Notes under the pieces: generated by a model
Seen by the model: only the letters and a program-made list of their open reading frames with translations
Told to the model about the DNA's origin: nothing
Database searches by the model: none
Origin: Clostridia bacterium
Lineage (GTDB): Bacteria; Bacillota; Clostridia; Oscillospirales; Acutalibacteraceae
Direction: 5' to 3'
DNA: 34,171 nt
NCBI GenBank assembly: GCA_017512465.1
Contig: JAFWGH010000046.1
Coordinates: 1 to 34,171 of the forward strand
Translations under genes and position numbers: made by a program
Shown here: positions 18,897 through 33,265 of the stretch, piece by piece
Layout: every line of letters begins with the position of its first letter
Position numbering within the stretch: the stretch's first letter is position 1

Positions 18897-19735
18897 TCAA
18901 TTTTTTTATTATTTTTATACGCCTTTAATGTATTTTGCATCAAAACCGCAATCGTCATCGGTCCGACACCGCCCGGAACCGGTGTAATATAAGAAGCTTT
19001 TTCCTTCACGGCTTCATAATCCACATCGCCCTGCAGCTTGCCTTCACTGTTGCGGTTGATGCCGACATCAATCACCACGGCGCCATCGCGCACCATATCG
19101 GCGCTCACGGCACCGATTCTGCCCACGGCGCTCACAATAATGTCCGCACGGCGGCAAATATCTTTTAAATCAGCGGTTTTGGAGTGGCACAGCGTTACGG
19201 TGGCATCTGCATGCAGTAATAACATTGCCATGGGTTTGCCGACAATATTGCTTCTGCCGATGACAACGGCATTTTTTCCGCTCACATCTATGTGATAGTA
19301 CTTGAGCAATTCCATCACGCCTGCCGGAGTGCACGGAGAGAAGGTATAATTGCCTATCATCACTTTGCCGACATCTGCCTCACAAAAAGCATCTACATCC
19401 TTTGCAGGTGCAATCGCTTCAATGACTGCCTTTTCATCAATGTGGCGCGGTAAAGGTAATTGACAGAGTATGCCGTCAATATTCTCATCTTGATTTAAAC
19501 GCTCGATTAATGCGATAAGTTCGCTTTGTGTAGTGTTTTCTGCTAATGCATACTCCTCACTGTGAAAACCGCAGTAAGCACAAGCCTTCTTTTTGTTGTT
19601 CACATACACTCTCGAAGCGGGGTCATCGCCCACAATAATTACCGCAAGACCGGGTGTATAGCCGTTTTCTTTCACTTCAGCGGCAATGTCATCTTTGAGC
19701 TTTTGGGATACCTCTTTTCCGTTAATGATTGTCAT
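18893..19735 (-). CDS. folD: Bifunctional methylene-THF dehydrogenase/methenyl-THF cyclohydrolase
   Basis: 280 residues, normal for FolD. It has DDPASRVYVNNKKKAC (with the catalytic Lys), the GILCQLPLPRHID signature, CTPAGVMELL, the nucleotide-binding GRSNIVGKPMAMLL and the C-terminal PVPGGVGPMTIAVLMQNT. It interconverts 5,10-methylene-, methenyl- and 10-formyl-THF for one-carbon supply. The start overlaps the lgt end by 14 bases and follows GGAGAAGG. It is last in the M16-M16-lgt-folD operon; no terminator is visible before the rplU promoter, so read-through is possible. Confidence 0.95.
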   Translation of the reverse strand: MTIINGKEVSQKLKDDIAAEVKENGYTPGLAVIIVGDDPASRVYVNNKKKACAYCGFHSEEYALAENTTQSELIALIERLNQDENIDGILCQLPLPRHIDEKAVIEAIAPAKDVDAFCEADVGKVMIGNYTFSPCTPAGVMELLKYYHIDVSGKNAVVIGRSNIVGKPMAMLLLHADATVTLCHSKTADLKDICRRADIIVSAVGRIGAVSADMVRDGAVVIDVGINRNSEGKLQGDVDYEAVKEKASYITPVPGGVGPMTIAVLMQNTLKAYKNNKKID

Positions 19736-20900
19736 TTTCCTTCTCCGTTTCCTGTGTTATTTCGGTTGTTTCAATCTCTTTTTCGGTAGTATTTTCCGCT
19801 ACCGTAGCGTTTTCTTCTGTCTTTTCCTCTTTTTCTGTTTTTTTCGTTTCTTTCTCTTTTTCCTCCGCTTCCGGCTCTTCATCTTTCGCTTTTGCTTTGC
19901 CGGCACGCGCTACCTTACCGCTGTAGGCGGGGTCAATATACCCCTCTCTCACCCACTTGCCGTTTTTATCAAAACCGGGTTCGTGCGGCGCGGTATTTTT
20001 CCAGTCAATCTTTTCGCCTTTTTTAATCTTATGGCGAATTTCCTGATGCAAGGGATGCTTTTTCGCATAAATAAAGCCGAGAATCAGCCAAACGATACCG
20101 CCTACCACCATTACAAGCGATACCACCTGTGAAACACGGATATTGGTATGTCCTATGTACAGGCTGTCGGTGCGCATACCTTCAATAATGAAGCGCACTG
20201 CGCCGTACCACACCAAGTAGAAAGCGAATATTTCGCCCCTGAATTTGCGGTATTTATTGCAAATAATGCGGCAAATGAAAAAGCCGACTATACATAATAC
20301 ACTTTCATATAAGAAGGTCGGATGCACCGGCTGGTCGGGGTAAACAGTAACGCCCTTTGCAGCTAGTTCATCCTGCACGGAAAGCAAATAATCTCTTGTT
20401 TTTTCGCTGTACATTCTGAAAAGAGCAGTGGTGGTATTGGTACCGAACGCCTCTTGATTAAAGAAATTGCCCCATCTGCCGATACCCTGCGCAAGCAAAA
20501 AGCTCATGCCGCATAAATCCAGCAAATTGGTTATACTCAGTTTGGTCACAAGACATACAATCAGCGCGGCAATTAAAGCGGCTATAATACCGCCGTAAAT
20601 AGCAAGACCGCCTTGCCAGATTTTAAAAATGTCTCCGATATGGTCTTTATAGTAATCCCACAGGCTGAACACATAATAAAGCCTTGCGCCGATGATACCC
20701 GCTATGGTACCCCAAATAGCGATGTCGAGCATATGGTCAATGCTCATTCTCCACTTATAGGCGCGCATACCGCCCATAACCACGGCTATAGCGTAGCCGA
20801 CAGCGATAATTAAACCGTATTTCATCACACTTCCGAAGGCAACGGGTGAGATGTTAAAACTCAAGCCCAAGCCTTCAAAAAATACTTGTATTTTATCCAT
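19722..20900 (-). CDS. lgt: Prolipoprotein diacylglyceryl transferase with long charged C-terminus
   Basis: A 392-residue polytopic membrane enzyme. The Lgt signature is clear: GGLAIYGG, the essential GIGRWGNFFNQEAFG and HPTFLYES. It attaches diacylglycerol from phosphatidylglycerol to the lipobox Cys of prolipoproteins. The core ends near residue 290. The last 100 or so residues are a hydrophilic tail, ending in a Glu/Lys/Thr-rich stretch that is unusual for Lgt and probably cytoplasmic. The ATG at 20900 overlaps the upstream peptidase gene by 8 bases. Confidence 0.94.
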   Translation of the reverse strand: MDKIQVFFEGLGLSFNISPVAFGSVMKYGLIIAVGYAIAVVMGGMRAYKWRMSIDHMLDIAIWGTIAGIIGARLYYVFSLWDYYKDHIGDIFKIWQGGLAIYGGIIAALIAALIVCLVTKLSITNLLDLCGMSFLLAQGIGRWGNFFNQEAFGTNTTTALFRMYSEKTRDYLLSVQDELAAKGVTVYPDQPVHPTFLYESVLCIVGFFICRIICNKYRKFRGEIFAFYLVWYGAVRFIIEGMRTDSLYIGHTNIRVSQVVSLVMVVGGIVWLILGFIYAKKHPLHQEIRHKIKKGEKIDWKNTAPHEPGFDKNGKWVREGYIDPAYSGKVARAGKAKAKDEEPEAEEKEKETKKTEKEEKTEENATVAENTTEKEIETTEITQETEKENDNH

Positions 20901-22179
20901 TCAGCTTCCTTTCTGCATCCGGCACAATCAGCGATAATGCCGCGCGCGAAACATCATATTTTGTCAATAAGCTTTTTTCGATATCCTCCACGGTAATGCT
21001 GCGGTACAGCTCGAGTTCTTCAAAATAGCGATAGCCGTTCATAAAGCTATCCAGCATATCGGTGGCAATATCCTCCACGGAATTAAAGCCTTTAACTATT
21101 GTACCATACATATCCTTAATAACGCAATCAAATAATTCCGGGTCGATACCCTCTTTACGCAGGCGTTCAACTTCCGCTTCAAACCTTTCTTTTACCGCGG
21201 CACCGTTTTCACTGCAGCCTGTAAAGAGTACGGCGGAATACTGTCTGCCGGAAAAATACTCGCTGCTGAAATCCTCTCCGATAAGCCCTTCTTCCATTAA
21301 ATCATCATACAGCGGCGACATGGGGCCGATAATAATTTGATTGAGTATTACCGTTTCCAAGCGCTCTTTAAGTGTTTTTAAGCCATCATGTTCCTCTTTA
21401 TAGCCGAAGGCAAACAGCGGCATGGCTACCGGCATTTTTTTGGTAACAAGCGTTTGCTTAGGCTCTGCCGGTTCCGATACGGAAATACCTTGTGCAAGCG
21501 CTTGTAGAGAAGGTTTAACATATTTATCACACAAGCGCACAATCTGCTCCGCCTCTACATTGCCGCAAATACTCAATATCATGTTTTGCGGTTGATAAAA
21601 GCCGTTATAAGCGCTATAAAGCAAATCCGGTGTAATGCGGGCAATCGACTCTACACTGCCCGCAATATCGGTATTAACCGCGCAATTTTGATACAGTGCT
21701 GCCAAAAGCCCCATGGTTGCCTGCCACTCGGGACTGTCGCGGTACATTTTAATTTCCTGCCCGATAATTCCCTGTTCCTTCGCCACGGTTTGCTCCGTGA
21801 AATACGCATCGAACACAAATTCCAGCAAAGATGCCAAGTTTTGCTCAAAGTTTTCCGAGCAGGAGAAAAGATAACAGGTGCGGTCAAACGAGGTATAAGC
21901 GTTTGCCCGCGCACCGGTTGCGGCAAATTTTTCGAAAGCATCCTTTTCTTCACTTTCAAAGAGTTTATGTTCCAAAAAATGCGCCGTGCCGTCCGGCAGG
22001 GTAACACGATTCCCATCGGCATCGATAAAGCGGTTATCCGCCGAGCCGAACGGTACACCAAGCAGTGCGTAAGAGGTTTGATAAGCAGGCTTCGGGAACA
22101 CCAAAATCTTCATGCCTGAAGCATGATTGATTTCATAATATTTTTCATCTAACAACTCATTTTTTATCTCTTGAATCAT
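20893..22179 (-). CDS. M16 family zinc peptidase (YmfH-like)
   Basis: 428 residues. It carries the inverted zinc motif HFLEH (HXXEH) near residue 87 and the downstream Glu in EQGIIGQEIKMYRD. These are the hallmarks of an active M16 peptidase, followed by the inactive-half fold (FCGNVE-like ICGNVEAEQIV). Family members form two-subunit clamshells; the partner encoded just upstream lacks the zinc motif. Bacillus YmfF/YmfH is the closest known pairing. The start overlaps the upstream stop by 4 bases (ATGA). Substrate unknown. Confidence 0.88.
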   Translation of the reverse strand: MIQEIKNELLDEKYYEINHASGMKILVFPKPAYQTSYALLGVPFGSADNRFIDADGNRVTLPDGTAHFLEHKLFESEEKDAFEKFAATGARANAYTSFDRTCYLFSCSENFEQNLASLLEFVFDAYFTEQTVAKEQGIIGQEIKMYRDSPEWQATMGLLAALYQNCAVNTDIAGSVESIARITPDLLYSAYNGFYQPQNMILSICGNVEAEQIVRLCDKYVKPSLQALAQGISVSEPAEPKQTLVTKKMPVAMPLFAFGYKEEHDGLKTLKERLETVILNQIIIGPMSPLYDDLMEEGLIGEDFSSEYFSGRQYSAVLFTGCSENGAAVKERFEAEVERLRKEGIDPELFDCVIKDMYGTIVKGFNSVEDIATDMLDSFMNGYRYFEELELYRSITVEDIEKSLLTKYDVSRAALSLIVPDAERKLNG

Positions 22180-23438
22180 GCGTTATCCCCCAAGGTATAA
22201 ATACAATCGAGTTTTACCGTTTTCGCGCAATCGATAATGCGCTGCCTGTCCACCCGCATGATGTTTTCAATGCTCTCATGCACACTCTTTGCGGTATCCT
22301 CTGTGAGCATCTGCGGCAAGTACCATCCGGCAATGTCCGCCGGTGAATCCATACTCGATAAATAGGCATCTTTCAGTTTACGCTTCGCGATTTCCGTTTC
22401 CTCATCACTAAAATCGCCTGCTTGTATCGCTTTTAATTGCTCCATAACCGCCTCCACGGTTTTTTGCCGATTTCCCGGCTCAATCCCGCTGTAGACAATG
22501 ATTATTTGCTTTTTCGGTCCGTAGGAAGAAGAGCAATAGTAACAAAGTCCCATTTTTTCACGCACCACTTTTGACAGCCGCGACATTTCGCTTCTGCCGA
22601 ATATCATATTCATGACTTTAAAAGCATCTTCATCCGCACCGCTCAGTGAAAAGCCCATATTGAGCTTGCACTGCTCCAAAGTCTCGCTCTCATGCACCTC
22701 TTTTAGCGCTTTAAAAGCGGGGTGCGGTTGAATTGTCTCTTTTTTCCACATGCGCTGTATCGGTTTAAAGCGCTCTCTAATGCTCCTTGCAAGTGCTTTG
22801 GCATCCCAATCGCCGACCGCACAGACCAAAACCTCGGCACTTTGTAACATTCTTTTCCATGCTGCGCTGACTGCTGCAGGTTCCAAGCTTTCCACTTGCT
22901 CGACAGTACCGGAGCTTAAAACGGCAGCGCGCTCGCCTTCGTAGAATACCTCATTAAATCGATTCAGGCTGTACTGCATTTTATCCCCGAAAGCGGTTTT
23001 AATATCCTCCATCATCAGCCGCTTTTCGCGTACCAGATTTTCGCTTTTAAACAAGCCGTTTTCATCTAAATCAGGTTCAAAAATGCACTCGCTGATAAAC
23101 CTCAATCCCGCTTCGCTGACGGCATCGCCCTGAAAAGCAAATCTATCCGCAATTGTACTAAGTGTGAAGGAAAGAATTTGCATATCGCCTGCTTTCCCGG
23201 CAACCGCAGAAAAGCCCGCTCCGTAAAGGGATGCAAGCTTACGCTCCATTTGCAGTGTTGCGGGATAATGCCTGCTTGTATAGCGAATTAAACCCGGCAG
23301 TGCAGCATAGGCACTGACCGTATCCGCATCCAGCGGCAAGACAAAGCGAAAAGTGATTCTTGAGGTCATAAAACGGCCGGTTTGCACACACAGCAGTTTA
23401 CCGCCCTCAAACAGTTTTATTTGCTCTATATTATCCAA
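22176..23438 (-). CDS. M16 family peptidase-like protein without zinc site (YmfF-like)
   Basis: 420 residues with the M16 fold (VGDWDAKALARSIRERF, FGRSEMSRLSKVVREKMGLCY and SSYGPKKQIIIVYSGIEPG), but where HXXEH should be it reads YTSRHYPATLQMERKLA, so it is probably the non-catalytic half of a heterodimer with the next gene product. The start codon is TTG at 23438: an AAGGAG site lies eight bases before it, and the next in-frame Met is 23 residues in, inside the conserved domain. It heads the four-gene operon with lgt and folD. Confidence 0.85.
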   Translation of the reverse strand: MDNIEQIKLFEGGKLLCVQTGRFMTSRITFRFVLPLDADTVSAYAALPGLIRYTSRHYPATLQMERKLASLYGAGFSAVAGKAGDMQILSFTLSTIADRFAFQGDAVSEAGLRFISECIFEPDLDENGLFKSENLVREKRLMMEDIKTAFGDKMQYSLNRFNEVFYEGERAAVLSSGTVEQVESLEPAAVSAAWKRMLQSAEVLVCAVGDWDAKALARSIRERFKPIQRMWKKETIQPHPAFKALKEVHESETLEQCKLNMGFSLSGADEDAFKVMNMIFGRSEMSRLSKVVREKMGLCYYCSSSYGPKKQIIIVYSGIEPGNRQKTVEAVMEQLKAIQAGDFSDEETEIAKRKLKDAYLSSMDSPADIAGWYLPQMLTEDTAKSVHESIENIMRVDRQRIIDCAKTVKLDCIYTLGDNA

Positions 23439-24572: not shown

Positions 24573-25262
24573 ATGAAAAGTTATTTTGATAAAACACATA
24601 CCTGGGGCAGAATATGGACGGTAGCGGCTCTCATTATCTTTTTAATGATGCCGGTTGCCTTCAGCATCCATCTGAATGCTTGGCCGAAAGCCGAATACTT
24701 TTTCAAAGGGCTCGCTTCGGTCGCCATCATATTTTATCCCACCGGCATTATTGAAGTTATCTCTTATGCGCCGCTGCTGGGCGCGGCAGGCACTTATTTG
24801 AGCTTTGTTACGGGCAATATTGCCAATCTGAAGCTCCCCTGCACCATGAGCGCCCTCGAAACCTCAGGCTATTCGGTTTCGAGTGAAGAGGGTGAAGTAA
24901 TTTCCACCATTGCCGTGGCGGTATCCTCTATTGTAACTACCGTGATTATTGCCGTGGGCGTGCTGTTGATGTCCGTGACCGGTTTTGTAGAGCGCTTAAC
25001 AAGCCCTTCTTCCCCGATATATCCTGCGTTTCAGCAGATTTTACCGTGCTTATTCGGTGCTATCGGTGCTACATATTTCTATAAGCACTGGAAAATATCC
25101 ATCGCGCCTTTTGTGGTGGTAATCATAGTATTGGCTTTCAGCGGCGGCACACAGGTCGGTGTGCTGATTCCCGTCAGTGTAGTAGTTGCATTGATTGCAA
25201 CGCATGTAATGTACAAAAAAGGCGTGTTTGACAAGGAGCAGCAGCGTTTGGAAAATGGATAA
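24573..25262 (+). CDS. Integral membrane protein, partner of the DUF5058 protein
   Basis: 229 residues with about six predicted membrane helices. The loop GTYLSFVTGNIANLKLPC is reminiscent of the GN-S/I-A break in the upstream protein, suggesting two related halves of a heterodimeric transporter (inference). I do not recognise a named family. The ribosome site is weak (TTTAGAGAT), so translation may depend on the upstream gene. The end overlaps the CLC gene by 8 bases. Confidence 0.7.
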   Translation: MKSYFDKTHTWGRIWTVAALIIFLMMPVAFSIHLNAWPKAEYFFKGLASVAIIFYPTGIIEVISYAPLLGAAGTYLSFVTGNIANLKLPCTMSALETSGYSVSSEEGEVISTIAVAVSSIVTTVIIAVGVLLMSVTGFVERLTSPSSPIYPAFQQILPCLFGAIGATYFYKHWKISIAPFVVVIIVLAFSGGTQVGVLIPVSVVVALIATHVMYKKGVFDKEQQRLENG

Positions 25263-26532
25263 TGTAAAAGAGTTTTTTAAGCACAAATTATTTTCCGCCG
25301 CGAATTATGTTCTTGTCTTTATCAAATGGATTTTTATAGCCGGCATTGTCGGATTGATTTGCGGGCTTGTCGGCACAGCGTTTGATATCAGCGTGGATAA
25401 AGCAAGCGAAGTGTTTCAAACGCATTCCTGGATGATTTTTTTGCTGCTGCCTGCCGGTCTTATCATTATCGGACTGTATAAGCTGTTTAAAGTGCAGCCG
25501 CATGTTGGAACCAATGATATCATCAGCTCCATTCGCACAAGCGAAAAGGTGCCTACCCTGCTTGTACCGCTGGTGTTTGTCGGAACTGTTCTCACCCACT
25601 TGGGCGGCGGCTCTGCCGGCAGAGAGGGCGCCGCACTGCAAATCGGCGGCGGCATCGGACAGCAAATGGGAAGACTGTTGCATTTGGATGAAAAGGATAT
25701 GCACCTGATCACCCTTTGCGGCATGAGCGGATTGTTTGCAGCTTTATTCGGCACACCGCTGACAGCGACCATCTTTGCAATTGAGGTTATCAGTATCGGC
25801 GTAGTATATTATTCGGCGCTGATTCCCTGTTTATCCGCCTCTCTTGCTGCGTTTGCCGTGACTCGGCTGTTTCAAGTACAGGCAGTGAAATTCGAACTTG
25901 CAAGTATTCCGGAGCTCGATGCACTCATGATTGCAAAAGTCGTTATTGCATCCGGTATTTTGGCAGCTATCAGTATTTTGTTTTGTGCGGCGATGCACGG
26001 CTCGCACTATCTTTTCAAAAAATACATAAAAAATGATTTCTTGCGCATCGCTATAGGCGCCATCGCGGTCATCGGGCTGACACTGATTTTCAGCGACAGA
26101 CGCTACAACGGCACCGGTATGCCGATTATAAAGGCGGCAATTGAGCAAGGCGAAGCGCTTCCGTATGATTTTGTTTTAAAAATCCTTTTTACCGCTATTA
26201 CAATCGGCGTAGGCTTTCGTGGCGGTGAAATGGTACCCACCTTCTTTATCGGTGCCACACTCGGTTGCACCATCGGTTCCTTTATCGGTATTGACCCCGG
26301 TTTTGCGGCAGCTATCGGCTTTATTGCCATGTTTTGTGCCGTAATGAACTGCCCCATTGCTTCCATTATTTTAAGTATTGAAGTGTTCGGTGCAGGCGGC
26401 ATTATCTATTTTGCCGTTGCCGCAGCGGTCAGTTACCTGCTTTCGGGTTACTACGGTTTGTACTCGAGCCAAAAAATAGTGTATTCCAAACTCAAAGCAG
26501 AGTTTGTCAATATGGATACAAAGTCTATGTAG
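25255..26532 (+). CDS. CLC family anion channel/antiporter
   Basis: About 425 residues, the membrane core of a CLC without C-terminal CBS domains. The selectivity motifs are GGGSAGREGAALQIGG (with the gating Glu), PLTATIFAIEV (one Glu kept, the adjacent proton-pathway Glu of the E. coli protein replaced by Val), and GGEMVPTFFIGATLG, where chloride CLCs usually have GGxFxP. A Glu at that place recalls the fluoride/proton branch of CLCs, from memory only. The ATG at 25255 is chosen over a TTG at 25228; it overlaps the previous gene, and its AAGGAG site is 16 bases away, so translational coupling is likely. Confidence 0.85.
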   Translation: MDNVKEFFKHKLFSAANYVLVFIKWIFIAGIVGLICGLVGTAFDISVDKASEVFQTHSWMIFLLLPAGLIIIGLYKLFKVQPHVGTNDIISSIRTSEKVPTLLVPLVFVGTVLTHLGGGSAGREGAALQIGGGIGQQMGRLLHLDEKDMHLITLCGMSGLFAALFGTPLTATIFAIEVISIGVVYYSALIPCLSASLAAFAVTRLFQVQAVKFELASIPELDALMIAKVVIASGILAAISILFCAAMHGSHYLFKKYIKNDFLRIAIGAIAVIGLTLIFSDRRYNGTGMPIIKAAIEQGEALPYDFVLKILFTAITIGVGFRGGEMVPTFFIGATLGCTIGSFIGIDPGFAAAIGFIAMFCAVMNCPIASIILSIEVFGAGGIIYFAVAAAVSYLLSGYYGLYSSQKIVYSKLKAEFVNMDTKSM

Positions 26533-26574: not shown

Positions 26575-28494
26575 ATGAAAAAGATTTTCAAAAAAGGTTT
26601 TTGCGTTATCTTGGCGATTGCCATGATTGCCTGCGGTGTTATCCCCGCTTTTGCGGTGGATCAAACACCGGTTGTACTTGTACCGGGCGTAATCAATGTC
26701 CCCATTTATGACGCATCCGGAAATCAAGTGCTTATGCCCGATTTTAAAAACAAGCTGGATCTTGAAAGCACGATTGATGCTCTCAAAGAGGTACTGCACC
26801 TTCAAGACACCGGCGCTTATGACCAGGCAATTGATAAATTGATTGGGGTTGCAAAAGATCTGTTTGATGATGCAAGATGTGATGAAAACGGTGATTCCGT
26901 GCTCAACACGCACTACGCTTTCCCGAACGGTTCCATTGCGCAGGATCCGGAAAGTGCACACTATTCGGATGAAAGCGCTATTGCCCGCATGCTCGGTCAA
27001 AAAATCGGCAATAAAAATGTGTACATTTTTACCTATGACTGGCGTATGGATGTTGTCGGTATCGTGGATAATTCCCTGGCTCCTCTGATTGATAGAGTTA
27101 AGAAGGAAACCGGTTCCGATAAGGTGACCATTTGTGCCGCTTCCATGGGCAGTGCCATCACCAACACTTACCTTTCCAAATACGGCAACAGAGATGATGT
27201 TAAGAAGGTTATCTTTATTTCCGGTGCAGGTCAAGGTGTGCAATTTGTACAGGATATTTATTTGACAAGACCGGTTTGTGTGAACCGTAAAGCAATGGGA
27301 CCTTATTTCAAGACTGTTCTGGGTGCACTTGGCGGCATCGGCATTTCCGCAGTAAGCCGTTATGCATGTGAGATTGCGCAAAAGCTAATGGATTCGCAAT
27401 ATGAAAAGCTATGGACGCAATTTGTTGAGAAAGACTTGTTATGCTGGCCCTCCATGTGGGAGCTTGCCGGTCATACCAAGGATATGGAAGCGCTTTTGAA
27501 GAGCACCAAAAACGAAACCTTCCAAAAGAAGGTTATGGAATATTACGGCTATCAGGATAATCTGAAAAATACCATGGATGCGCTCAAAGAAAAAGGCGTG
27601 GAGATATGCTATACTTCCAACTATAATCTCACCGGTGTTCCCGCAACACCCAAGGCCGATGTTGTAAATACCGACTATTTGATTGATACCTACCACACCT
27701 CCTTTGGTGCAACCGTTGCCGACCTCGGCAAAACCTTAGGCGATGACTATACTCAAAAGAATGATGATGGTCATAATCACCTTTCGGAAGATGGTGTGAT
27801 TGATGCTTCCACCTGTTATTCTCCGGAAACCACATGGTTTATCAAGGACCTGCTGCATGTCAGCTTCCAAGATAAAGCTCCGCAAACCGCATTTATTTGC
27901 TGGCTTGTGCTGACCGATAATGTCACGATTGAATCCAATCCTGAAAAATATCCGCAGTTTATGCAGTTTACAACAGAAAAGGATGAAAAAGACAAAGAGG
28001 TCAAATCATTAGTTTCGGTTAAAAAAGTTGAGATTGAAACACCTTCCGAAGAGGGTGAAAAAGGTCCCGGCAGTTATGTTTCCTCCGCAGTTACAGTATA
28101 TACCTATACACAAATTACAGGTTTCGGTTGGGCACTCATTATAGCCCTTGTCGCTCTGCTCATTATCCTTATTGCTAAGCGCAGAAACAAAGGACCGATT
28201 GAGGGCGTTTTGACAAAGGCTGAAATTAAAGCACTGCCGAAGAGCGAGCGTAAGGCCGCCAAGAAGCAAAACAAGGCGCGCATTAAAGAGTGGAAAAAGC
28301 AGCAAAAGGCAAATAAGAAAGCGCGTAAAGCAGAGCTCAAAGCAATGCCGCGCAAAGAGCGCAAAGCTGCCAAGAAGGCTGATAAGAAGGCTGCTAAAGC
28401 TGCAAGAAAGCAAGCGAAGGCAGATGCTAAGGCTGCAAAGAAGCAGGCAAAGCTCGATAAAAAAGCTGCCAAAGCTGCAAAGAAAAACAAATAA
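26575..28494 (+). CDS. Secreted LCAT-like hydrolase A with membrane anchor and basic tail
   Basis: 639 residues from the ATG after CGGAGG (an upstream TTG would add 12 non-signal residues). Signal peptide 1-27 (cleavage near AFA/VD). The alpha/beta-hydrolase domain has VVLVPGVINVP (oxyanion side), YDWR at 154-157 as in LCAT/PDAT lipases, and the nucleophile elbow AASMGSA with Ser190; a likely acid and base lie in DASTCYSP and WFIKDLLH. A short stalk (IETPSEEGEK) leads to one helix (about 518-535) and a 104-residue Lys/Ala-rich tail that should be cytoplasmic. It starts 42 bases after the CLC gene with no visible promoter, so it probably belongs to that operon. Substrate unknown; ester or phospholipid hydrolysis is likely. 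Confidence 0.82.
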   Translation: MKKIFKKGFCVILAIAMIACGVIPAFAVDQTPVVLVPGVINVPIYDASGNQVLMPDFKNKLDLESTIDALKEVLHLQDTGAYDQAIDKLIGVAKDLFDDARCDENGDSVLNTHYAFPNGSIAQDPESAHYSDESAIARMLGQKIGNKNVYIFTYDWRMDVVGIVDNSLAPLIDRVKKETGSDKVTICAASMGSAITNTYLSKYGNRDDVKKVIFISGAGQGVQFVQDIYLTRPVCVNRKAMGPYFKTVLGALGGIGISAVSRYACEIAQKLMDSQYEKLWTQFVEKDLLCWPSMWELAGHTKDMEALLKSTKNETFQKKVMEYYGYQDNLKNTMDALKEKGVEICYTSNYNLTGVPATPKADVVNTDYLIDTYHTSFGATVADLGKTLGDDYTQKNDDGHNHLSEDGVIDASTCYSPETTWFIKDLLHVSFQDKAPQTAFICWLVLTDNVTIESNPEKYPQFMQFTTEKDEKDKEVKSLVSVKKVEIETPSEEGEKGPGSYVSSAVTVYTYTQITGFGWALIIALVALLIILIAKRRNKGPIEGVLTKAEIKALPKSERKAAKKQNKARIKEWKKQQKANKKARKAELKAMPRKERKAAKKADKKAAKAARKQAKADAKAAKKQAKLDKKAAKAAKKNK

Positions 28495-28506
28495 TTTTTA
28501 ACAAAG

Positions 28507-28543
28507 AATAAGCATCCTGCTTTTGCGGGATGCTTATTTTTTA
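28507..28543 (+). terminator. Terminator after hydrolase A
   Basis: Stem AATAAGCATCCTGC/GCGGGATGCTTATT (14 bp with one G-U) and TTTTTT. It is nearly the same as the one after hydrolase B, showing that the duplicated unit includes the terminator. Confidence 0.88.
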
Positions 28544-28595
28544 TGTTCTCTTCTTTTAACGATTTTTAACAATATATAACTTATATAAATATATA

Positions 28596-28624
28596 TTGAC
28601 ATTATAAACATAATAAGGTACAAT
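28596..28624 (+). promoter_or_regulatory. Strong sigma-A-type promoter of hydrolase B
   Basis: Perfect -35 TTGACA (28596-28601), 17-base spacer, -10 TACAAT (28619-28624). Confidence 0.88.
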
Positions 28625-28626
28625 AT

Positions 28627-28657
28627 ATAGTGAAAATTTGTGTATAGTATTCACTAT
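28627..28657. promoter_or_regulatory. Inverted repeat at the transcription start of hydrolase B
   Basis: Perfect 8-bp arms ATAGTGAA (28627-28634) and TTCACTAT (28650-28657) with a 15-base spacer. It covers the predicted start of transcription and ends just before the GGAGGG ribosome site, so it could be an operator or a 5' UTR hairpin. Confidence 0.5.
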
Positions 28658-28677
28658 GCACCTGGAGGGAGACATAA

Positions 28678-30594
28678 ATGAATAAACTGGTTAAAAAAAG
28701 TATGGCAGTTTTGTTGGCAGTTTTAATGTTGGTAACCATTGCCGTGCCCGCATTTGCTGCAAAAGCCGATAAAACTCCGGTGGTTGTGATTCCCGGTGTG
28801 TTAAATACACCTATCATTCGCGATGATACCGGCGAGCAGGTACTGCTTCCTGATTTGAGCAAACTTTCGGATGAAGAGATTGAGGAAGCAATTGCCACAC
28901 TAAAATACATTTTAAAGTTGCAGGATAATAATGACCATGCCGGTGCAACCAAAAAGCTGATTGAATTGCTTTACACCGTTTTGGATGGCGCTGCCTGCAA
29001 TCCCGACGGCAGTTCGAAATACCCGACACATGTAATTAAGAATTATGAAAATTACAACACAGAGTCGGATGCCAACGAAGCCATCGGCAGAGAGATTTCC
29101 AAAACAATCGGTAAAGAAAATGTTTATGTTTTCACCTATGACTGGAGAGGCGAAATTATCGATATCGTAGATAATGAATTGGCTCCCTTTATTGAAAAAA
29201 TCAAGAAGGATACCGGTTCCGATAAAGTTAAAATTGCCTGTGTTTCCATGGGTGGTGCGGTAACAAGCGCTTACTTGAACCGCTACGGTGACAGAAACGA
29301 TGTTAAAAAAGTTGTGTTTGTATCAAGTGCGGCAAAAGGTGTTGAGTTTGTCAACAGTCTTTTAGATAAAGATATCACGGTTGTACGTGAAGCAATCGGT
29401 CCCTACTTCAAGGCATTCACCGAAGGCGCTATTCCGATTGCCGCAACCGCAATCAGCGGCTATCTTGAGCAAATCGTAGGCGGTATGCTTGACTCACAGC
29501 TCGAACAATTATGGAATAATTTTCTGCAACCCTACTGCTTAAACTTCCCCGCTGTTTGGGAATTGGCAGAGCACACCAAAAATATTGATAAAGAGCTGGA
29601 TGAATATAATGTTCACCCTGACTTAAAGAAAAGAGTCAAAGAATATTACGCCATTCAAGACAGTTATAATGATACTTTAGACAAGTTACAGGAAAAGGGC
29701 GTGGAAATCTGCTTTATCTCCAACTATAATTTAGTCGGTGTCCCCTTCACTTCCAAAGCAATGGTTTCCAACTCCGATTTCTTAATTACAACCCGCCAAA
29801 CTTCCAACGGCGCTACCGTAGCGGATTTATTTACAACTCTCGGCGATGATTATGAGCAAAAGGTTCCTTCCGACAAGAACTATATTTCGGAAGACAACAT
29901 CATTGATGCTTCCACTTGCTATAGTCCGGATAAAACATGGTTTATTAAAAACCTTGTTCATGCGATTATCACCGATGGCGACCAGCACTCAAAAATTATT
30001 GCATGGTTAACTATCAATAATGATACAACGATTGAAACAAGTGAAAAGTATCCGCAGTTCTTAGATTTTGTTAAAACTAAGGATGATAAGGGCAAAGAAG
30101 TCTTCCAGCTGGCGCCTGTAGAAAAAGTGGTAATTGAAACACCATCCGAAGAAGGCGAAAAAGAGGCCGGCGGATATGTCTCCTCTGCTGTTACGGTATA
30201 TACTTATACACAGATCACCGGTCTCGGTTGGGCACTCATTATAGCCCTTGTCGCTCTGCTCATTATCCTCATTGCAAAGCGCAGAAATAAAGGACCGATT
30301 GAGGGCGTTTTGACCAAGGCGGAAATTAAAGCGCTGCCGAAGAGCGAGCGCAAAGCCGCCAAGAAGCAAAATAAGGCGCGCATTAAAGAGTGGAAGAAAG
30401 AGCAAAAGGCAAATAAGAAAGCACGCAAGGCAGAGCTCAAAGCAATGCCACGCAAAGAGCGTAAAGCTGCTAAGAAAGCTGATAAGAAGGCTGCTAAAGC
30501 TGCAAGAAAGCAAGCAAAGGCAGATGCTAAGGCTGCAAAGAAGCAGGCAAAGCTCGACAAAAAAGCTGCTAAAGCTGCTAAGAAAAACAAATAA
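28678..30594 (+). CDS. Secreted LCAT-like hydrolase B with membrane anchor and basic tail
   Basis: 638 residues, paralogue of hydrolase A. Signal peptide 1-27 (AVPAFA/AK), VVVIPGVLNTP, YDWR at 154-157, and nucleophile elbow ACVSMGGA with Ser190, at exactly the same residue as in copy A. The candidate acid/base pair is in DASTCYSP and WFIKNLVH. The stalk, helix (GWALIIALVALLIILIAK) and Lys/Ala tail are almost identical to copy A in protein: the tail differs by one Gln-to-Glu. It has its own strong promoter, GGAGGG site and terminator. It probably acts on lipids or esters at the outer face of the membrane; substrate unknown. Confidence 0.82.
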   Translation: MNKLVKKSMAVLLAVLMLVTIAVPAFAAKADKTPVVVIPGVLNTPIIRDDTGEQVLLPDLSKLSDEEIEEAIATLKYILKLQDNNDHAGATKKLIELLYTVLDGAACNPDGSSKYPTHVIKNYENYNTESDANEAIGREISKTIGKENVYVFTYDWRGEIIDIVDNELAPFIEKIKKDTGSDKVKIACVSMGGAVTSAYLNRYGDRNDVKKVVFVSSAAKGVEFVNSLLDKDITVVREAIGPYFKAFTEGAIPIAATAISGYLEQIVGGMLDSQLEQLWNNFLQPYCLNFPAVWELAEHTKNIDKELDEYNVHPDLKKRVKEYYAIQDSYNDTLDKLQEKGVEICFISNYNLVGVPFTSKAMVSNSDFLITTRQTSNGATVADLFTTLGDDYEQKVPSDKNYISEDNIIDASTCYSPDKTWFIKNLVHAIITDGDQHSKIIAWLTINNDTTIETSEKYPQFLDFVKTKDDKGKEVFQLAPVEKVVIETPSEEGEKEAGGYVSSAVTVYTYTQITGLGWALIIALVALLIILIAKRRNKGPIEGVLTKAEIKALPKSERKAAKKQNKARIKEWKKEQKANKKARKAELKAMPRKERKAAKKADKKAAKAARKQAKADAKAAKKQAKLDKKAAKAAKKNK

Positions 30595-30606
30595 TTTATA
30601 ATTAAG

Positions 30607-30642
30607 AATAAGCATCCTGTAGCGGGATGCTTATTCTTTTTT
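30607..30642 (+). terminator. Terminator after hydrolase B
   Basis: Stem AATAAGCATCC/GGGATGCTTATT followed by CTTTTTT. Confidence 0.88.
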
Positions 30643-30657
30643 GTGCTTTTTTGAATA

Positions 30658-30686
30658 TTGACATTGTTTTGTTATTATATTAAAAT
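30658..30686 (+). promoter_or_regulatory. Sigma-A-type promoter of hydrolase C
   Basis: Perfect -35 TTGACA (30658-30663), 17-base spacer, -10 TAAAAT (30681-30686). A TATAAT also lies at 30686-30691, at a less good spacing of 22. Confidence 0.75.
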
Positions 30687-30723
30687 ATAATTTAGAGTAT
30701 TGTGTCCATAGGAGGCAAAAAAC

Positions 30724-32655
30724 ATGAAACGATTTTTCAAAAAAACGCTTTGCATTTGTTTAGTTGTTTTGATGCTTGTGAGCATTCCGCTCTCGGCAAA
30801 TGCAAAGGCTGTGAACAAAACCCCGATAATTTTTATCGCAGGTATCAACAGTTCTTCCTTATACCTCAACAAAGGCACCGAGAATGAACAAAGAGTTTGG
30901 CTGCCGACAGTTGATGATTGGACGCCGGTTATCGATTTCTTTAAGAGCTTAACGCATCTTGAGGACAACGGCTATAATTACGATAGCTTCATGACTCAAA
31001 AGTTTGTACCTGTTCTTCAAAATGCGATTGGTCCGATTCGCTGCGACAGCAATGGTAATTCTATGCAGGATGTATCGATTGACTTTACCATGCAGTCCTA
31101 TGCCGAAAATGAAATTGCCCGCGCAAAAGGCGGTATTCAAAGTGATTTGCTTGAAATTGCCGCTGATACCATTGGCGGTGACCGTGTATTCAGATACAGT
31201 TATGATTTTCGCATCAGCGTAATGGACCATATACACATTTTGCGCGATATGGTGGAAAATGTTAAAAATGTTACCAACAGCAAAAAAGTCAGAATTATCG
31301 GTGTGAGCATGGGTGGTGCCGTATTAAATGCGTATTTAAATACATACGGTCATGATGATTTGGAATCTGTCACCTTCCTTTCCTCCGCTGCTGAAGGCAC
31401 CAACTTCCCCGCTTTGATGTTCTCGGGCACAATTCAATTAAACCGCGATACCATTGCCGCCTGCTTGAATCGCTTAATCGGTTTGGTACCCTCCGCATTG
31501 ATTGCCTCCTTAGAAAATTCCATTAATCAGATTAATGAGCTATGGAGCGGAGACAGAATTACCTATTTCTACAACGAATGGGTTAAAGACTATCTCGGTA
31601 AATGGTGCGGACTTTGGAACCTTGTGCCGAGCGATAAAGTAGACAGTTGTATTGACTTTATGCTCGACAAGCAAAAGGATGCAGGATTGATTGCCAAAAT
31701 TAAACAGTATCAAGCTTGTCAGGATAATTTACATGATGTTCTCAATCAGTGTAAAAAGGATGGCGTGAAAGTGTATGTGCTTTCCTCCTACAATATCAAT
31801 GCAATTCCTTTTAAAGGAAATGACCACCAAAATGATATTTTGATTGATACGGAGTATTGTACACTCGGCGCTACAGCAGCCACCTTCCCTGAAAAGACAC
31901 TCGGTGATGATTACACCCAAAAGGTGGATGACGGTAAAGAGCGCGTTTCGTGTGATAATATTGTGGATGCCTCTACATGTTGGTTCCCCGACCAAACATG
32001 GATTATCAAAAACATGGTCCACTGTATGTTTGTTAAAAAGACAAAGGATAATGAACCGGACCAAACCGGTGAATTCTTTAAGTGGTTCATCTCGCAAACC
32101 GATGAAATCAGTGTGGAAAGTAATGAGAAATATCCGCAATTTTTGGATTACACCAAAAGTGCCGGTTCACTTGTAGCACTTGAACCGGTGGTAATTGAAA
32201 CTCCGACAGAAGAAGGCGAAAAAGGTTCCGGCGCGTATATCTCCTCCGCCGTTACGGTATATACCTATACACAGATTACCGGTCTCGGTTGGGCACTCAT
32301 TATCGCGCTTGTCGCTCTGATCATTATCCTTATTGCCAAGCGCAGAAACAAAGGACCGATTGAGGGCGTTTTGACCAAGGCAGAGATTAAAGCACTTCCC
32401 AAGAGCGAACGCAAAGCCGCCAAGAAGCAAAACAAGGCGCGCATTAAAGAGTGGAAAAAGCAGCAAAAGGCAAATAAGAAAGCGCGTAAAGCAGAGCTCA
32501 AAGCTATGCCGCGCAAAGAGCGCAAGGCTGCTAAGAAGGCAGACAAGAAGGCTGCTAAAGCCGCAAGAAAGCAAGCAAAGGCAGATGCTAAGGCGGCGAA
32601 GAAGCAAGCAAAGCTCGATAAGAAAGCAGCCAAAGCTGCAAAGAAAGCAAAATAA
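30724..32655 (+). CDS. Secreted LCAT-like hydrolase C with membrane anchor and basic tail
   Basis: 643 residues, the most divergent of the three. Signal peptide 1-27 (LSANA/KA), PIIFIAGINSSSLY at the oxyanion side, YDFR (160-163) instead of YDWR, and a canonical elbow IGVSMGGA with Ser195. The acid/base region is DASTCWFP and WIIKNMVH. The catalytic domain aligns only loosely with A and B, with different insertions around residues 45-150, but the stalk, membrane helix and 104-residue basic tail are again nearly identical (last residues KAK instead of KNK). It has its own promoter, an AGGAGG site and a terminator. Probably a different substrate from A and B; this is inference. Confidence 0.8.
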   Translation: MKRFFKKTLCICLVVLMLVSIPLSANAKAVNKTPIIFIAGINSSSLYLNKGTENEQRVWLPTVDDWTPVIDFFKSLTHLEDNGYNYDSFMTQKFVPVLQNAIGPIRCDSNGNSMQDVSIDFTMQSYAENEIARAKGGIQSDLLEIAADTIGGDRVFRYSYDFRISVMDHIHILRDMVENVKNVTNSKKVRIIGVSMGGAVLNAYLNTYGHDDLESVTFLSSAAEGTNFPALMFSGTIQLNRDTIAACLNRLIGLVPSALIASLENSINQINELWSGDRITYFYNEWVKDYLGKWCGLWNLVPSDKVDSCIDFMLDKQKDAGLIAKIKQYQACQDNLHDVLNQCKKDGVKVYVLSSYNINAIPFKGNDHQNDILIDTEYCTLGATAATFPEKTLGDDYTQKVDDGKERVSCDNIVDASTCWFPDQTWIIKNMVHCMFVKKTKDNEPDQTGEFFKWFISQTDEISVESNEKYPQFLDYTKSAGSLVALEPVVIETPTEEGEKGSGAYISSAVTVYTYTQITGLGWALIIALVALIIILIAKRRNKGPIEGVLTKAEIKALPKSERKAAKKQNKARIKEWKKQQKANKKARKAELKAMPRKERKAAKKADKKAAKAARKQAKADAKAAKKQAKLDKKAAKAAKKAK

Positions 32656-32659
32656 TCAC

Positions 32660-32692
32660 AAAAAAGGATTTGGCGATGCCAAATCCTTTTTT
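32660..32692 (+). terminator. Terminator after hydrolase C
   Basis: Perfect 14-bp stem AAAAAGGATTTGGC/GCCAAATCCTTTTT with a 3-base loop and T-run. It is unrelated in sequence to the terminators of copies A and B. Confidence 0.88.
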
Positions 32693-32695
32693 ATC

Positions 32696-32724
32696 TTGAA
32701 TAAAAATGTAAATAATAATATAAT
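32696..32724 (+). promoter_or_regulatory. Promoter giving a probable leaderless fthC transcript
   Basis: -35 TTGAAT (32696-32701), 17-base spacer, perfect -10 TATAAT (32719-32724). The ATG is at 32732, so transcription would start at or within a base or two of the start codon. No Shine-Dalgarno sequence is present. Confidence 0.65.
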
Positions 32725-32731
32725 AACAATT

Positions 32732-33265
32732 ATGAACAAAAAAGATTTAAGACAGTATTATAAAGCCCTGCGCCGCGAAATCGCGCACAAAGCGCAAAAG
32801 AGTGATTCTATTTTGCATTCTCTTTTAAATCGCACACAGTGGCGCACAGCGCACACTGTAGCACTCTACGCTTCCCTGCCGGACGAAGTGGATACCGCTG
32901 CTATGATAACATCTGCTTTGGACAGTGGAAAATGTGTTTGCCTGCCGAAGGTACATGGCGGTGAAATGCAGTTTTATGCTATACACGCCGATACCGCATT
33001 TCACTACGGCGCTTACGGTATTCGCGAGCCTGAAGGCACATCAGCGGTACCGAAAGAGGAAATTGAGCTTATCATTGTACCCTTGCTGGCAGCAGACAAA
33101 GACAATTACCGCCTCGGCTTCGGCGGCGGATATTATGATAAATATTTAAAGGACTTTACCGGTGTGAGCATCGGCGTGTGTTTTCAAGAGCAGCTGTCCC
33201 CTTTTCCTCTGCCGCATGAAGCACATGATATTGCTCTCGATGATATTATTTATGATACAGCCTAA
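32732..33265 (+). CDS. fthC: 5-formyltetrahydrofolate cyclo-ligase
   Basis: 177 residues from MNKKDLRQYYKALRREIA. It has the family pattern VALYASLPDEVDT, the ATP/substrate block IIVPLLAADKDNYRLGFGGGYYDKYL and LPHEAHDIALDDII at the end. It returns 5-formyl-THF to 5,10-methenyl-THF using ATP, feeding the pool used by FolD. An open frame reaches back to 32585 but runs through the hydrolase C tail in another frame and the terminator, so the ATG at 32732 is the true start. There is no Shine-Dalgarno site, and the -10 box lies 7 bases before the start codon. Confidence 0.92.
   Translation: MNKKDLRQYYKALRREIAHKAQKSDSILHSLLNRTQWRTAHTVALYASLPDEVDTAAMITSALDSGKCVCLPKVHGGEMQFYAIHADTAFHYGAYGIREPEGTSAVPKEEIELIIVPLLAADKDNYRLGFGGGYYDKYLKDFTGVSIGVCFQEQLSPFPLPHEAHDIALDDIIYDTA

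Follow-up and report, generated by a model that had tools for sequence, protein, structure and literature searches.

Three tandem genes for predicted surface lipid hydrolases share a homogenised membrane anchor with a long basic tail in a Clostridia bacterium

Positions 1 to 34,171 of contig JAFWGH010000046.1 (assembly GCA_017512465.1), the whole stretch of DNA that was analysed and is called here the window, belong to a Clostridia bacterium of the Acutalibacteraceae. They carry three open reading frames (ORFs) in tandem on the forward strand, genes A, B and C, for predicted exported hydrolases that end in nearly the same stalk, membrane helix and long basic tail. Sequence comparisons indicate that the tails were homogenised by gene conversion, or by an equivalent recombination, after the species split. 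We give even chances to a reading in which the three proteins are lipid esterases tethered to the surface by one common membrane anchor, the tail of which binds, inside the cell, to a partner that is anionic or specific.

The three proteins lie where an initial annotation had located them, and each contains all the parts named there: a signal peptide, an enzyme domain of about 460 residues, an acidic IETP(S/T)EEGEK stalk, one hydrophobic helix (about residues 518-536 in the gene B protein) and the basic tail. According to the positive-inside rule, the basic flank of a membrane helix remains cytoplasmic, and by this rule the tail is predicted to follow a single helix into the cytoplasm, as had been proposed.

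Enzyme domains cluster with their orthologues (A, B or C), identity being 70-96% between genomes and 33-49% within a genome; in the window, A and B are 48% identical, and either of them is 33-34% identical to C. The tails show the reverse, being 96-100% identical within a genome and 67-89% between most genomes, with up to 95% in the close pair G073/G200. Within genomes, the synonymous distance (dS) of the tails is 0.11-0.56 and the nonsynonymous distance (dN) 0-0.025, while the dS of the enzyme domains is at least 1.6 or saturated. For tails of different genomes, dS is at least 1.4 and mostly near saturation, except in the same close pair. Along the genes, nucleotide identity between copies is about 60% before the stalk and steps up sharply there to about 93%. 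In a tree of tail DNA every genome forms one group, and grouping by orthologue is rejected (approximately unbiased test, p 7.6e-5 or lower; rounded values 4e-82, 8e-5 and 1e-5). As tails group by genome while enzymes group by orthologue, homogenisation postdates the species split, and gene conversion or an equivalent recombination accounts for the sameness of the tail across the three genes. Duplication during assembly was rejected as the source of identical tails, because distinct synonymous differences (0.4-0.6) are found inside the single contig of the window. The array is a bacterial example, and a clear one, of concerted evolution confined to the anchor end of the genes, which lets the enzyme domains diverge while the anchor remains common.

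The sameness of the tails could lack functional meaning if their repetitive DNA favoured gene conversion and the result were merely tolerated. The DNA is indeed of low complexity, and conversion stops where the functional enzyme domain ends. However, this would explain identity within genomes and not the 91-95% identity of the membrane-near part of the tail between genomes at mostly saturated synonymous distance, and we regard it as extremely improbable.

Counted from KRRNKG, the tail has 105 residues, of which 36 are lysine and 8 arginine (42% together) and 25% alanine; with 9-10 Asp/Glu its net charge is +34 or +35. The initial annotation had described 104 residues with about 40% Lys+Arg; the basic, K/R/A-rich character stands and the figures are slightly changed. 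It had also proposed two related units of about 37 residues, which agrees with the best self-match of the whole tail, at a lag of 37 residues with 42% identity. The membrane-near 59 residues, hereafter the near part, consist of LTKAEIKALPKSERKAAKKQNKARIKEWKKEQ plus the second unit up to KADK. Mean identity between genomes is 95% and 91% in the near part, 78% in the transmembrane (TM) stretch, 59% in the linker and 76% in the distal part, so that the near part exceeds in conservation both the helix and most enzyme orthologue pairs (70-96%). A different function for such a tail would be that of an over-long topogenic stop-transfer signal, which orients the helix and whose length and sequence are irrelevant beyond positive charge. 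The positive-inside rule agrees with it, and TM-anchored relatives end in short KKR/RKRK sequences at the same place. Yet in those relatives a handful of charges is enough, and neither the conservation of the 59 residues nor the low dN/dS of the tails within genomes is expected from it; we consider a purely topogenic role decidedly unlikely. The tail is under strong constraint and, because it is kept identical within genomes and its first part is conserved above the enzymes between species, it probably has a definite job.

The distal part is conserved as a pattern, that of a helix with an 11-residue period. At lags of 7, 11 and 18 residues its K/R positions are autocorrelated (about +0.5 to +0.85), and all genomes show an amphipathic helical moment with its maximum at 99-100 degrees (z 2.1-4.3). 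A helical-wheel plot places nothing but lysine on one face, which runs without a break for about 46 residues, and a stripe of alanines on the other side. The distal half is free of proline. AlphaFold2 (AF2) draws tail helices at residues 555-589 and 592-637 of the gene B protein, which for such a sequence is weak evidence if taken alone. The regular alanine stripe would also suit a homo- or hetero-oligomerisation helix in which alanine stripes pack and the three enzymes form one complex. In favour of this, all three genes share a tail that is homogenised within each genome, so partners would always match. Without a polyanion, though, helices with so much charge of one sign would pack poorly, and the separate promoters and terminators of the genes offer no hint of stoichiometric expression. 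Oligomerisation is thus very unlikely in our judgement.

The same charge and the same continuous lysine face could bind nucleic acid, by which the tail would link the enzymes, or patches of membrane, to ribosomes, mRNA or the DNA of the nucleoid. The sequence-constrained near part, suggestive of a specific partner, also fits this idea. Against it, the tail resembles no nucleic-acid-binding family in Pfam, its distal helix lacks the Pro-rich repeats that H1 tails typically carry, and we know of no reason for an ecto-lipase to hold DNA. Precedents have been reported: insertases of the YidC/Oxa1/Alb3 group touch ribosomes with their basic tails (PMC8733628, for Alb3), and H1-like AlgP acts on nucleoid or polyphosphate granules (PMC9239181). 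Those proteins share with ours a Lys/Ala-rich or strongly basic cytoplasmic tail; ours differ in being single-pass ecto-enzymes, in having no sequence match to them and in their 11-residue-periodic, proline-free distal helix. On balance we find binding to nucleic acid unlikely. The term histone-like, used in the initial annotation, is apt for composition and not for family. A Pfam search with the tail gave unrelated families (best E 1.5) and no significant match, no linker-histone or nucleoid family among them, and the distal half is a proline-free, lysine-faced helix.

Among 180 non-overlapping ORFs in 241 kb of the same genome (window included), a K+R content of at least 25% over the C-terminal 100 residues occurs only in genes A, B and C, the mean being 11.6% (sd 5.3). 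Each of the 7 genomes of the genus has the tail, on this hydrolase family only. Outside the genus it was searched in samples of the family (398 genomes), the order (394) and the class (381), some genomes being common to several samples, and no significant match was obtained. The best one, the tail of a GtrA-like protein, has an E of 7.6e-4 per genome, which is chance level for that many genomes; the order sample gave further weak matches (E 0.001-0.01), not inspected singly. In the GtrA-like tail, from another genus (L009/L153), LSNKQIRQLPQEQRAQAKEDNKRIFAEYK follows directly on the last helix and aligns with the near unit. It is the sole family-level match placed in this way, and lacks significance once all searched genomes are considered. 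Lgt, MFS and ATP synthase b subunits, also rejected as tail homologues in the family sample, are alike in charge only. The initial annotation had suggested that the tail is a shared targeting module, a view that it tied to an independent distribution. This view is not supported in the genomes sampled, as the tail is restricted to one hydrolase family, one genus and one clade, and the search of other genomes for fusion partners returned no unrelated N-terminal domain. Because it is found throughout the genus and not elsewhere in the samples, the tail is a lineage-specific ending, probably acquired once in the clade of this genus.

Further information about the enzyme domain came from an AF2 model of the gene B protein built on 60 homologues (mean predicted local distance difference test score, pLDDT, 84.8). 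Residues 30-481 of the model were compared with known structures by VIA-align. The best match is lysosomal PLA2 (4x97; Z 20.9, 299 residues, root-mean-square deviation 4.2), followed by LCAT (5txf; Z 20.1), PlaB (Z 17.9), and then Tle4 and bacterial lipases, and the matched region covers residues ~31-454. This structure prediction bears out the LCAT-like fold assigned initially. Foldseek alignments of the whole model had poor TM-scores, probably since the long tail helices form part of it. Candidate catalytic residues Ser190, Asp406 (or Asp410) and His428 in gene B numbering are invariant in 60 of 60 homologues, and all three genes have them in the order Ser-Asp-His. The alpha/beta-hydrolase fold is thus predicted to be common with lysosomal PLA2 and LCAT over ~290-300 aligned residues (Z ~20-21); these enzymes have the same order of catalytic residues and are likewise secreted or lumenal, but identity is 11-14% and they lack the membrane anchor and basic tail. 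Pfam finds weak alpha/beta-hydrolase matches only; its LCAT family (PF02450) gives 14.7 bits for gene C against a cut-off of 21 and does not list A and B. NCBIfam and PDB sequence matches (PhaZ7, Bacillus lipase A) cover the nucleophile elbow only. The model thus describes enzymes that would function like LCAT and fall outside the LCAT family as filed in Pfam. The initial annotation had spoken of different catalytic domains, which holds for their distinct sequences and not in the sense of unrelated enzymes, as the domains are paralogues. Because of the fold match and the invariant Ser-Asp-His, the enzymes likely carry out extracellular lipid ester hydrolysis or acyl transfer.

We propose the following mechanism for tethered esterases with a docking tail. 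The signal peptide would export the three acyl-ester hydrolases, which would stay on the outer face of the membrane through a common C-terminal anchor, with the acidic stalk outside, one transmembrane helix and the long basic tail inside. Since charge alone needs no fixed sequence, the near part would make a specific intracellular contact. The straight, amphipathic distal helix could lay its lysine face against an anionic surface, for which the inner leaflet, being nearest, is the likeliest candidate. Both parts together would hold and perhaps cluster the enzymes, and lipid cleavage products would then be made at the cell surface. The tail probably arose once in the clade of the genus, gene conversion homogenising its copies while the enzyme domains diverge. 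It is tempting to go further and to see in the near 59 residues a new cytoplasmic docking domain for one specific conserved partner (the ribosome, polyphosphate, the nucleoid or a protein scaffold would be candidates), which couples surface lipid hydrolysis to a place or process inside; gene conversion would then keep all the enzymes compatible with the same partner. We offer this extension tentatively and hold it to be rather doubtful.

Several points weigh against the proposed mechanism. Pfam matches of the enzyme domains are weak, with Lipase_2 barely above cut-off and in gene C only, and therefore the lipid substrate is guessed from the modelled fold. AF2 is prone to model Lys/Ala-rich sequence as long helices. 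On its alanine side the distal helix is only weakly hydrophobic, so membrane binding would depend on charge. The clade of tailed proteins has a support of 93, from a quick tree, not starred. Topology and docking partner, like the lipid substrate and the clustering, are what we infer.

The enzyme domain belongs to an expanded family, found in 46 of 200 genomes of the window's bacterial family with up to 11 matches per genome; the named relatives are Oscillospiraceae/Clostridia genomes, many of ruminant-gut origin. The nearest of them come from ruminant guts, and the bacterium of the window is taken to be a gut bacterium as well. The untailed Oscillospirales paralogues (L076-L146) are ~25-35% identical and keep the same invariant residues. 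They differ in the C-terminus: some have none, and others carry a dockerin, a short amphipathic helix or a sortase-like ending (PxTG-like signal, TM helix and short basic end). In a quick tree all tailed proteins fall into a single clade (Shimodaira-Hasegawa-like approximate likelihood ratio test, SH-aLRT, 93). Dockerin repeats, as at the dockerin-like ends of L077 and L078, are absent from the C-termini of the window proteins. A stalk, a TM helix and a positive C-terminus are shared with LPXTG sortase anchors, but here no LPXTG-like motif precedes the helix (the window stalk reads IETP(S/T)EEGEK...YTYTQITG) and the tail has 105 residues instead of a few. As relatives place dockerins or sortase signals at the same position, the whole ending may be read as an attachment device, in a bacterial surface enzyme family that seems to exchange such devices between genera. 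The fold, single-pass anchoring and basic tails are known singly. In a limited search of open papers, we found nothing on point about basic tails of bacterial ecto-enzymes, nor any case that combines these features with such a structured tail and with concerted evolution confined to the anchor. A polybasic cytoplasmic tail that is both long and structured would thus be an attachment device so far undescribed in the literature searched.

Because of hairpins after A and B and promoter-like sites before B and C (Table 1), the genes are probably separate transcription units. The ATG at 26575, with the ribosome-binding site ACGGAGGAAATTGAG directly upstream, is the likely start of gene A; the longer ORF from TTG 26539, given by the ORF caller, is less likely. 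Six further genomes of the genus have an orthologue of gene A.

Table 1. Features of the three-gene array and its borders in the window
Feature	Position	Strand	Remarks
ClC-type channel/transporter (PF00654)	25228..26532	+	upstream of gene A; neighbour conserved in the genus
Gene A, 639 aa	26575..28494	+	signal peptide, predicted LCAT-fold hydrolase, stalk, TM, basic tail; candidate catalytic residues S190, D406, H428
Gene A homogenised module (stalk, TM, tail)	28033..28491	+	cytoplasmic tail (predicted) from 28177; distal helix from 28348
Terminator-like hairpin 3' of gene A	28503..28542	+	resembles the hairpin after gene B
Promoter-like TTGACA-17-TACAAT of gene B	28596..28624	+	consensus match only
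Gene B, 638 aa	28678..30594	+	parts as in gene A; candidates S190, D406, H428
Gene B homogenised module (stalk, TM, tail)	30133..30591	+	tail from 30277; distal helix from 30448
Terminator-like hairpin 3' of gene B	30604..30638	+	
Promoter-like TTGACA-17-TAAAAT of gene C	30658..30686	+	consensus match only
Gene C, 643 aa	30724..32655	+	parts as in A and B, enzyme domain most diverged; candidates S195, D411, H433
Gene C homogenised module (stalk, TM, tail)	32194..32652	+	tail from 32338; distal helix from 32509
5-formyltetrahydrofolate cyclo-ligase ORF (PF01812)	32585..33265	+	conserved downstream border of the array

As listed, the cyclo-ligase ORF begins within gene C, but translation probably starts near 32733. 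Elsewhere in the genus (L069, L070, L072-L074) the ClC channel gene also lies 5' of gene A, and the cyclo-ligase gene ends the array wherever the contig reaches (L068, L052). Gene order is A-B-C in the window, while the contig pieces of G073 and G200 fit A-C-B, an order pieced together from fragments; differing orders are expected if recombination between near-identical tails reshuffles the array. Order was compared in L067, L070 and the window, and several relatives' contigs end inside tails.

Transcription slippage on A runs in the tails is unlikely, their longest run being 6. Long Leu/Phe/Ala-rich ORFs run antisense to the tails (28104-28490, 30204-30590 and 32265-32633, reverse strand); they are most likely not genes but a side effect of the Lys/Ala codons opposite. 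Elsewhere in the window, the Lgt (prolipoprotein diacylglyceryl transferase, PF01790) encoded at 19722-20900 on the reverse strand has a long, charged, Lys/Glu-rich C-terminal tail, and Lgt of relatives L006 and L007 has long charged tails likewise; long charged cytoplasmic tails may be common on membrane proteins in this group. Two adjacent genes for M16-type peptidases lie beside lgt (20893-23438, reverse strand). A capsule-type chain-length/tyrosine-kinase-like protein (G000:C4:19989-20087, L063) has a Lys/Ala/Pro-rich C-terminal end.

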